Assembly (NCBI RefSeq): GCF_001517935.1 | Contig: NZ_LOQF01000001.1 | Coordinates: 62,001 to 126,000 of the forward strand | Source of the DNA: Sneathia sanguinegens | Lineage (GTDB): Bacteria > Fusobacteriota > Fusobacteriia > Fusobacteriales > Leptotrichiaceae | Length of the DNA stretch: 64,000 bases | Reading direction: 5' to 3' | Shown: positions 36,098 through 39,721 of the stretch, in pieces | How positions within the stretch are numbered: position 1 is the first letter of the stretch | Layout: each line of letters starts with the position of its first letter | Made by a program: the position numbers and the translations under genes | Notes under the pieces: generated by a model | Told to the model about the DNA's origin: nothing | Seen by the model: only the letters and a program-made list of their open reading frames with translations | Databases searched by the model: none

Positions 36098-37756
36098 TTA
36101 TATTTTTCTTTTTGATAATTTATCTAAATAATTTTTTGTAATACTTGATATAATAGGTCTACCATGAGGACAGTTAAATTTATTAATTTCATGTATCCTT
36201 TTTACGAGATCTTTCATTTCTGGCATTGATAATTTTTGACCTGCCATAATAGAATAACGACAAGCCATAGAAATTATTACTTTTTCTCTAATATCGGTTA
36301 AAGTTTTATTGGACATTAAACATTCTATTATACTTTTTATTATCTTTTCATTTGTAGTACGAAGTTCAAAATCAGGAACAGCTCGTAATACAATTTCATT
36401 TTCAGATAATTCATCAATTTCAAAACAAAAATCAGAAAAAATTTGTATATTATTAAATAATATATTTTTTTCAGTTAATGATAATTCAAATACTTCAGGT
36501 ATCAATAATTGTTTTTTTGTCATTGTTTGATTATAATATTTTTCTTTTAAGGCTTCATAATTAAGTCTTTCATGTAAGGCGTGTTGATCATAAAAATCAA
36601 TACTATCTTTTTTTTGAACAACAATATATGTATCAAAGACTTGAGCTAAAATATTATATGATTTGTTTTCTTCAATAGTATCAGTATAAGAAAATAGTTC
36701 TTGAACTTTAGCTTCACTATGTTTAAAAGTATTTTCTTCTAAGACCTGTGAAACCTGTGTTGTTTTAGGTATAGAAGAAATAGTATAATTTTTTCTATCG
36801 TCTTCATAGAAAAAATCTTCTATAGCCTTTCTAATTTGTCTGTAGACTATTTTATCATCTGAAAATTTAATAATCTTTTTTGAAGGATGTACATTTACAT
36901 CAATTTCCGAAGGATTAATATCATATAAGATTATTGCAAAAGGGTATTTATGTTTCATAAGTTTTGTATAATAACCATCAATTACACTTCTTTCTATAAT
37001 ATTAGATTTACAATATCTCTTATTTATAAAGGTATAAATATAATTTTTAGAACCTCTATATATTTCTTGATTACCTAAATAACCATATTTGAATTTTTTT
37101 AAATTTCTATAAATATTTTTTCCTAATAATTCTATTATTGCATTATCAAGAGAAGTACCTGAACTTGAAAAAATAACTTTATCATCTATTATTAATTTTG
37201 TAGCTATTTCAAAATTAGCTAGGGCAAGTTTAAGTAAAATATCTTTTATAGCAGTTAATTCAGTTTGTTCTTTTCTTAAAAATTTTTTTCTTGCAGGGGT
37301 ATTATAGAACAAATCTCTTATTTCAATAATAGTACCAGTCTTCATTGCAACATCTGAAGAATTTACAATATTTCCCCCAAATATTGATATTTTTAAACCT
37401 AATTTGTTAGTTTCAGTTTTGGAAGAAATATTCATTTTTGAAACTGCAGCTATAGATGCTAAAGCCTCACCACGAAAGCCATAGGTATTTAGATTGAAAA
37501 TATCTTCTTTTGTATGTAATTTTGAAGTAGCATGTCGCTCTATACATAAGAAAAGGTCTTCTTTTACCATTCCTATACCATCATCTAGTATTTTAAAATA
37601 ACTAAGATCAGATTTAATATGAATTTCTATATTCTTTGCCTGTGCATCTATACTATTTTCATAAAGTTCTTTTATCATAGAAGCTGGATTGTCAACTACT
37701 TCACCAGCAGCTATAATATTTGAAACATTTTCATCAAGTATTTTTATAATACTCAT
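36098..37756 (-). CDS. mutL: MutL, DNA mismatch-repair protein with nicking motif
   Basis: GHKL-type ATPase that couples mismatch recognition to strand incision. It is 552 residues, on the short side. ATPase motifs are AAGEVV, KELYENSIDA (catalytic Glu, Asn), DDGIGM and GFRGEALASIAAVS. The C-terminal dimerisation domain carries the endonuclease motif DQHALHERLNYE (form DQHA-x2-E-x4-E), plus MACRYSI and FNCPHGRPI. MutL proteins with this set nick DNA, as in MutH-less bacteria. The SD lies directly after the T-run of the upstream ncRNA. Confidence 0.96.
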   Translation of the reverse strand: MSIIKILDENVSNIIAAGEVVDNPASMIKELYENSIDAQAKNIEIHIKSDLSYFKILDDGIGMVKEDLFLCIERHATSKLHTKEDIFNLNTYGFRGEALASIAAVSKMNISSKTETNKLGLKISIFGGNIVNSSDVAMKTGTIIEIRDLFYNTPARKKFLRKEQTELTAIKDILLKLALANFEIATKLIIDDKVIFSSSGTSLDNAIIELLGKNIYRNLKKFKYGYLGNQEIYRGSKNYIYTFINKRYCKSNIIERSVIDGYYTKLMKHKYPFAIILYDINPSEIDVNVHPSKKIIKFSDDKIVYRQIRKAIEDFFYEDDRKNYTISSIPKTTQVSQVLEENTFKHSEAKVQELFSYTDTIEENKSYNILAQVFDTYIVVQKKDSIDFYDQHALHERLNYEALKEKYYNQTMTKKQLLIPEVFELSLTEKNILFNNIQIFSDFCFEIDELSENEIVLRAVPDFELRTTNEKIIKSIIECLMSNKTLTDIREKVIISMACRYSIMAGQKLSMPEMKDLVKRIHEINKFNCPHGRPIISSITKNYLDKLSKRKI

Positions 37757-37766
37757 AATTCACCTC

Positions 37767-37961
37767 AAAAAAAAACTAGAGCTAGTACAAAATTTTTGGC
37801 TGCCTTTTACAATAAGACAAGTGGCAGGTATTTAATAGATATGTACAGAATCCGTTTAAGCTCATTGTCTTTCGTGATTAACCTGAGGCATATCTATCAG
37901 GGATCCCTCCAGTAAATATGAGTAAAGCCCAAAAATTAGTAGTACTCTTAGCTCTAGCTTA
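37767..37961 (-). ncRNA. ssrS: Structured non-coding RNA, 6S RNA candidate
   Basis: About 195 bases between aspS and mutL with no reading frame. On the minus strand it starts at a strong promoter and ends in nine T residues. The ends pair in a long closing stem: 37926-37957 with 37776-37801 (CTAGAGCTA..GTAC and the complementary AATTTTTGG/CCAAAAATT blocks). Inside, 37889-37897 pairs with 37835-37843 over nine bases, and 37823-37827 pairs with 37800-37804 as a side hairpin. A rod with open central region of this size is the architecture of 6S RNA, which binds sigma-70 RNA polymerase. I identify it by shape, size and promoter, not by conserved primary sequence, so another sRNA or a mutL leader remains possible. 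Confidence 0.6.
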
Positions 37962-37967
37962 TAATTA

Positions 37968-37996
37968 ATTATAACAATTAAAAATAAAATTGTCTA
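37968..37996 (-). promoter_or_regulatory. Promoter of the ncRNA
   Basis: Minus strand TAGACA (37991-37996), exactly 17 bases, TATAAT (37968-37973), with predicted start near 37961 where the closing stem begins. The -35 box includes the aspS stop codon. Confidence 0.7.
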
Positions 37997-39721
37997 TAAT
38001 TTTTTTAATTGTAAGTCTTTTTCTAATTGTGTAAGATCTACATCAGCTGGAGCACCAGTTAATAAATCTTGTCCCTTATTTGTTTTAGGGAAAGGAATAA
38101 CTTCCTTTATTGAATTTTCTTTTAGCATAACCATTAGCCATCTATCCAAACCGAAGGCTATACCACCATGAGGTGGAACTCCATATTTTAAGGCTTCTAA
38201 TAAGAAACCGAATTTATCAATTTGTTGTTCTTTTGAAATTAGTAGTCTATCAAATACAAGAGATTGTAATTTAGAATCATGTATTCTAATACCTCCTCCA
38301 CCAATTTCAAAACCATTTAAGACAAGGTCATAGGTATCAGATTTAATATTTGCTAAGTCATTTTTTTCAAGTAAGTCTATATCAGCTTTTTTTAACATAG
38401 TGAAAGGATGATGACAAGCCTTATATCTATTTTCTTCTTCACTAAATTCAAACATAGGGAAGTCTACTATCCATAAGAAATTAAATTTGTTTTTATCAAT
38501 TAAATTAAGTTCTTCAGCAATTTTAAGTCTTAGTGCTGAAAGAGAACTAAGAACTATTTCTTTTTTACCTGAAATAATTAGGGCTGTTTGATTATTTTTT
38601 AAATTCAATTTTTTTTCTAAATTTTTAATAGTATCTTCATCAAAAAATTTAAGTATAGAAGAATTTAATTCATCATTTTCTTTTTTTATAAAGGCAAGAC
38701 CTTTAGCTTTGAAATATGTTTTTACATAATCTTCATAGTCTTTTATATTTTTTCTTGAAAATATTTTATCGCAAACTATAGCTTTTATATATTCAGCTTC
38801 ATCAAAGATAGAAAAGCCTTTATTTTTTACACAATCTTTTATATCAATTAATTTCATATCAAATCTTGTATCAGGTTTGTCACAACCATAAAATTCCATT
38901 GCATCATCATAAGACATTTTAGGGAAGTCATAATTTGCTTCAAGACCTGTCACATCATGAAAAACTTTTTTAGCTAATTTTTCAATAATATTCATAATAT
39001 CTTCTTGTTCTACAAAAGACATTTCTATATCTACTTGAGTAAATTCAGGTTGTCTATCAGCTCTTAAATCTTCATCTCTAAAACATTTTGCAAGTTGATA
39101 ATACTTATCAAGACCAGCTATCATAAGAGTTTGTTTAAATAATTGTGGAGATTGAGGAAGAGCATAAAAACTACCTTTTTGTATTCTTGATGGAACAATA
39201 AAATCACGAGCACCTTCTGGGGTAGCCTTAGCAAGAACAGGTGTATCTAAGTCCAAAAAGCCATTATTATTTAAAAATTCTCTTATAGAAAAAAGCATAG
39301 TATTTCTTTTTATTAAATTATTTAACATACGAGGTTTTCTTAAATCAAGATATCTATATTTTAATCTAAGATTTTCATTGCTTGTTTCAGTATCATTAAT
39401 TTCAAAAGGTAAAGCTTTAGCCTCACTTAAAATATTAATATTAGTTGCAAGAACTTCTATATCACCAGTAGCCAATTTTGGGTTTTTTGAAGTTCTTTCT
39501 TGAACCAAACCTGTAATTTGTAAAACAAATTCATTTTTAATATTCTTAACTTTTTCAATTAAATCTTCTTTTATTAAAATTTGTGTTATGCCATATCTAT
39601 CACGAAGATCTATAAAGGCAAAAGCACCTAAATTTCTGATTGTATTAACCCAACCAGCTAAGGTTACTGTAGAACCACAATCTTTTAGTCTTAATTCATT
39701 TAATTTATGTGTTCTATACAT
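37994..39721 (-). CDS. aspS: Aspartyl-tRNA synthetase
   Basis: Class II synthetase of 575 residues, bacterial type. It has an N-terminal OB-fold domain (VTLAGWVNTIRNLGAFAFIDLRDRYGITQ), catalytic core with motif 2 FRDEDLRADRQPEFTQVDIEMSF near residue 213, the inserted GAD domain (about 285-400) and motif 3 GGIAFGLDRWLM near 525. It overlaps hisS by eight bases, a common aspS-hisS pairing. Whether it also charges tRNA-Asn cannot be told here; asnA two genes upstream makes free asparagine. Confidence 0.97.
   Translation of the reverse strand: MYRTHKLNELRLKDCGSTVTLAGWVNTIRNLGAFAFIDLRDRYGITQILIKEDLIEKVKNIKNEFVLQITGLVQERTSKNPKLATGDIEVLATNINILSEAKALPFEINDTETSNENLRLKYRYLDLRKPRMLNNLIKRNTMLFSIREFLNNNGFLDLDTPVLAKATPEGARDFIVPSRIQKGSFYALPQSPQLFKQTLMIAGLDKYYQLAKCFRDEDLRADRQPEFTQVDIEMSFVEQEDIMNIIEKLAKKVFHDVTGLEANYDFPKMSYDDAMEFYGCDKPDTRFDMKLIDIKDCVKNKGFSIFDEAEYIKAIVCDKIFSRKNIKDYEDYVKTYFKAKGLAFIKKENDELNSSILKFFDEDTIKNLEKKLNLKNNQTALIISGKKEIVLSSLSALRLKIAEELNLIDKNKFNFLWIVDFPMFEFSEEENRYKACHHPFTMLKKADIDLLEKNDLANIKSDTYDLVLNGFEIGGGGIRIHDSKLQSLVFDRLLISKEQQIDKFGFLLEALKYGVPPHGGIAFGLDRWLMVMLKENSIKEVIPFPKTNKGQDLLTGAPADVDLTQLEKDLQLKKL

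Follow-up and report, generated by a model that had tools for sequence, protein, structure and literature searches.

The gap between aspS and mutL in Sneathia sanguinegens raises two questions: whether it holds a gene for 6S RNA, the small RNA by which bacteria restrain RNA polymerase, and whether transcription of this gene continues into mutL. A preliminary description of the 64,000-nucleotide stretch of DNA analysed here (the window) had proposed both. The host belongs to the Leptotrichiaceae and has a genome of 1.29 Mb; its order includes Leptotrichia and Fusobacterium, and the nearest named relative among the compared records is Oceanivirga miroungae. We are highly confident that the element is a 6S RNA (ssrS) gene that is located immediately behind aspS and has a sigma-70 promoter of its own. 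The proposed link to mutL is plausible and concerns few genomes.

The gene and its immediate surroundings

No open frame spans the gap between aspS and mutL on either strand, which bears out the claimed lack of coding potential. Promoter, gene and T-run are all arranged on the minus strand, a detail absent from the preliminary description. On this strand, the gene order is ligA, asnA, tmk, hisS, aspS, 6S gene and mutL, with names read from the translations. The promoter matches the sigma-70 consensus in 11 of 12 positions, carries a TG preceding the −10 box and overlaps the aspS stop codon with its −35 box. Near-consensus boxes at 17-base spacing had been described and are present, but the site lies just outside the segment 37767-37961 to which they had been assigned. 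The positions of the promoter and the T-run gave the presumed 5′ and 3′ ends of the RNA gene. The RNA ends in nine T as described, and the run indeed touches the ribosome binding site of mutL: GAGGTG begins one base past the ninth T, and the ATG (37756..37754) follows four bases beyond it.

Features of the 6S RNA locus, in positions of the window
Feature	Position	Strand	Details or basis
aspS	37994..39721	−	Co-directional, directly upstream of the 6S gene
Promoter	37968..37996	−	−35 TAGACA 37996..37991, 17 bases, −10 TATAAT 37973..37968
6S RNA gene, about 190-195 nt	37767..37961	−	R1 match and orthologous RF00013-positive loci
Closing stem, 5′ strand	37950..37960	−	Partner ~37782..37772, reaching into the T-run; minimum-energy fold
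Inner helix, nine pairs	AAUUUUUGG 37937..37929 / CCAAAAAUU 37799..37791	−	Helix 2 of A5
Central bubble, 5′ side, predicted pRNA template UGGGCUUUACUC	37912..37931	−	Conservation of TTTTGGGCTTTACT
Apical arm	37828..37911	−	Helices 3-7 of A5
Hairpin CUGCC...GGCAG, 3′ side of the central bubble	37800..37827	−	Helix 8 of A5
Nine-T run at the RNA end	37767..37775	−	Separate terminator hairpin absent
mutL Shine-Dalgarno GAGGTG	37761..37766	−	Starts at the base right after the T-run
mutL	36098..37756	−	ORF, co-directional, directly downstream of the 6S gene

Homology to 6S RNA across the order

The covariance search that had been proposed as a check gave a negative result on the window's own genome: RF00013 had no match at E ≤ 10, and Rfam scans, run with the gathering threshold and with relaxed ones, yielded only chance matches at the locus. 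This miss reflects the sensitivity of the model and not a property that defines 6S RNA. A DNA search of 40 relatives detected clear homologs of the window RNA throughout the family. Among the same relatives, RF00013 scored above the gathering cut-off in 11 genomes from two families, ten of them in the family of the window. The scores of these ten loci, 47.5-55.5 bits, are close to the cut-off of 46.4, and the Rfam alignment of the positive loci spans the full model. The ten places coincide with those of the DNA homologs; in G003:C1, for instance, 927604-927806 stands against 927632-927774. A few of these DNA matches are no more than a short piece.

A covariance model, R1, was built solely from the ten Rfam-positive loci of the family. 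Its match in the window, at 37784-37950, scores 93.1 bits (E about 3e-22) and is the only one in the genome; neither RF00013 nor R1 found another 6S candidate there. All held-out relatives that were tried were recovered, save G010, an incomplete genome. Across the order, 93 of 96 genomes have a single strong match each. Among the R1-positive genomes are those of the Fusobacterium type, in which RF00013 is nearly silent. The window RNA is structured, conserved and present as a single copy, and it has orthologs above the Rfam 6S cut-off. The identity proposed in the preliminary description gains its support by this route: the orthologs pass RF00013, and the model made from them matches the window. 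It is a divergent and for the most part unannotated member of a nearly universal family, which escapes the standard model in this order.

In the Fusobacteriales genomes G027-G039 and others, RF00013 finds few 6S genes within the Fusobacterium family; R1 finds one clear locus per genome, with few exceptions. 6S RNA has probably been overlooked throughout by automated annotation. A search of the accessible literature retrieved no description of a fusobacterial 6S RNA; an RNA map of Fusobacterium published in Nature Microbiology in 2021 may already report one. The search with R1 fills an annotation gap. Under the standard model, the order, Fusobacterium included, mostly appears to be devoid of 6S RNA, yet all 77 good-quality genomes (≥ 90% completeness, ≤ 5% contamination) carry one conserved candidate with one strong match, at a mostly conserved place. 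The conserved candidate allows testing of 6S biology in medically interesting anaerobes.

Fold, covariation and the predicted product RNA

The window RNA has the layout of a 6S RNA: a closing stem, an inner helix, an open 5′ bubble, a hairpin on the 3′ side and an apical arm. Its minimum free energy is −52.1 kcal/mol, compared with −41.0 ± 4.3 for shuffled sequences (z = −2.6; 3 of 200 shuffles as low). The fold of the single sequence is just moderately unusual and too weak as proof by itself. In this fold, the 5′ bubble is partly paired, which counts against the 6S reading, and the CUGCC/GGCAG side hairpin is absent. The other structural claims of the preliminary description were confirmed: the fold is a long rod of about 190 nt as in 6S RNA, the long terminal pairing exists with its 3′ bases entering the T-run, and the inner helix has its nine base pairs. 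The outer closing stem falls outside model R1; visual comparison of the window with L002 showed compensatory changes in it.

Conservation is the decisive evidence that the structured RNA is real. In a set of 25 sequences aligned to R1, 92.4% of the cells form standard pairs and 34 of the 51 pairs have changes on both sides; the alignment is fitted to the structure and leans towards it by construction. Doubly changed cells number 216, as against 65.5 ± 7.3 in shuffles and at most 42 in slid structures. With covariation far above both controls, pairing is conserved in related genomes. Changes on both sides occur in all eight modelled helices, and the closing stem, the large central bubble and the apical arm are supported by the covariation of the 25 sequences. 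The inner helix is paired in 93% of the cells, with both sides changed in four of nine pairs; the corresponding values for the 3′-side hairpin are 86% and four of six pairs. This side hairpin, which had also been claimed, is thus supported by comparison, and in the fold model a hairpin arises there on blocking of the template strand. An independent fold of a MAFFT alignment, which was not fitted to the structure, recovered the apical arm, including 17 pairs with changes on both sides. RNAalifold did not retrieve the outer helices from this alignment, probably owing to its gaps in that part.

Two motifs of the apical arm are near-invariant, AAUCACG (37879..37873) and ACGGAUUCUG (37855..37846). 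This conservation of UCACG and ACGGA exceeds what a rod shape alone would need and, together with RF00013 scores near the cut-off, it could point to a fusobacteria-specific RNA that binds polymerase or acts in trans and is only similar to 6S RNA, as Ms1 is in actinobacteria. Such an RNA would hardly give full-length matches above the Rfam cut-off in eleven genomes of two families, share aspS synteny with the 6S-1 gene of Bacillus subtilis and reside in a genome that has no other 6S candidate. We consider it very improbable and retain the assignment to 6S RNA.

Published 6S RNAs have the same layout, with the start of the product RNA (pRNA) within the 5′ bubble (PMC8414754). In the window RNA, the near-invariant strand UGGGCUUUACU sits where the pRNA template is expected. 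The string TTTTGGGCTTTACT is nearly invariant across the Leptotrichiaceae loci, and so is the bubble strand UUUUGGGCUUUACU in loci of the family, in both cases with the exception of the Sebaldella type. By analogy to published 6S RNAs, from which the start was inferred, the predicted pRNA is 5′-GUAAAGCCCAAAAAUU, with a predicted start of GUAAAGCCC; its positions 5/6 are AG, where GG is usual, which also counts against the 6S reading. Blocking of the template strand in the fold model opens the inner helix, and the 3′ hairpin forms, which fits within the model what the known release mechanism requires. In the Sebaldella-type loci of genus g9 (L046, L048, L049 and L052), the bubble strand is altered to UUUUUGUUCUAACA, and the 85 bases that precede the model match contain no clear promoter.

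From the properties of the 6S family, a sequence of events may be proposed. The RNA would be transcribed from its own sigma-70 promoter just past aspS and would mimic an open promoter. On declining nutrients, it may bind the housekeeping RNA polymerase holoenzyme. The polymerase would copy the short predicted pRNA off the bubble strand UGGGCUUUAC, and the 6S RNA would be released, its 3′ side presumably refolding into the hairpin during pRNA synthesis. Part of the transcription may pass the weak T-run end into mutL.

Neighbouring genes and read-through into mutL

The upstream side of the gene is conserved. A promoter with at least 10 of 12 consensus positions within 85 bases upstream was present at 35 of 46 orthologous loci, as against 36 of 824 background windows. 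The gene aspS lies upstream on the same strand at 28 of the 46 loci, in four families, and is directly adjacent at 27; most loci outside Leptotrichia have kept it directly upstream. The sole near relative without this adjacency is L055, where a 283-aa ORF resembling an M48 (HtpX-type) membrane protease lies between aspS and the 6S gene (G004, L055:5286-6137). In Oceanivirga miroungae (L056, L031), aspS and the 6S gene have remained together and mutL is located elsewhere on the chromosome.

The downstream gene differs in most of the order. Only the window, L053, L054 and L055, four genomes of three genera, have mutL directly behind the 6S gene on the same strand, with 28-32 bases between the end of the model and the start codon. 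The arrangement, with the T-run abutting the Shine-Dalgarno sequence of mutL, could be read as a structured mRNA leader of mutL, a riboswitch or an autoregulatory element, and not a free-standing RNA. We rejected this reading, as most relatives do not have mutL as their downstream neighbour: 42 of the 46 orthologous loci have no mutL directly downstream on the same strand, and in four of them it is divergent. The RNA is conserved where other genes follow and it matches 6S RNA, so that a mere leader is scarcely credible, the least probable reading that we considered. In genus g5 (L010, L012, L013 and L014), mutL is the divergent neighbour of the 6S gene; the distance between the two starts is 124-148 bases in three of these genomes and about 710 bases in the fourth.

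For the 6S RNA of the window, the relation to mutL depends on how transcripts start and end. Within the 6S gene, no promoter-like site was seen on the minus strand of the window, and the window scan revealed no terminator-like hairpin between the 6S RNA and mutL. As the Shine-Dalgarno sequence follows the T-run and no inner promoter was seen, a transcript from which mutL is translated would start at the 6S promoter, further upstream or at a promoter invisible to the scan. Sneathia-type loci end in a T-run alone, without the extra hairpin of many Fusobacterium-type loci; in the latter (L087-L092), a separate hairpin and T-run lie beyond the closing stem, L087 having GGGACTTTGTCCCTTTTTTTT, for example. 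The preliminary description had suggested that read-through from the 6S RNA drives mutL. For the window this is plausible and agrees with the anatomy of the sequence, but the claim cannot be extended to the family as a whole. On the Sneathia-type branch, mutL may have come to use the 6S gene as its promoter region and 5′ leader, and would then be transcribed only through the 6S gene, with transcripts starting at the 6S promoter or reading through from aspS; we put forward this scenario tentatively, at somewhat less than even chances. If true, the growth-phase signal for 6S RNA synthesis would also raise the repair capacity. The arrangement offers a simple and testable tie between growth-phase control and mismatch repair.

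A variant of this explanation leaves the 6S identity unchanged: the RNA could always be cut from a longer aspS-6S-mutL transcript, with no true terminator and the promoter playing a minor role. The lack of a terminator-like hairpin between aspS and mutL would fit, as would the observation that B. subtilis polymerase binds extended 6S-1 transcripts that include aspS and yrvM sequence (PMC11077062). The near-consensus promoter, conserved at the right distance in most loci, and the T-run behind the closing stem in near relatives make obligatory processing unlikely, and we favour a 6S RNA transcribed from its own promoter.

Among known systems, the E. coli ssrS RNA and RF00013 share with the window RNA the rod with closing stem, inner helix, central bubble and apical arm and a size of ~190 nt. 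A co-directional gene lies right behind the 6S gene in both organisms; it is ygfA in E. coli (PMC9130861) and mutL in the window. The window RNA differs from RF00013 by falling below its detection and by an apical arm with near-invariant UCACG and ACGGA. Ms1 of actinobacteria has a 6S-like shape. It associates with the core polymerase in the absence of sigma (PMC9130861), and a HAD hydrolase gene is linked to it; the comparison with the window RNA covered these properties and the Rfam scan.

The predicted pRNA resembles the pRNA of B. subtilis 6S-1, GUUCGGUCAAAACU, with the difference of AG in place of GG at positions 5/6. A hairpin faces the 5′ bubble in both RNAs (PMC8414754). The neighbours of bsrA, the 6S-1 gene, are aspS and yrvM, and 6S-1 transcripts extended into these genes are still bound by the polymerase (PMC11077062). 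The 3′ neighbour in the window is mutL and not yrvM, but aspS is the 5′ neighbour in both, and this common neighbourhood suggests an old gene order.
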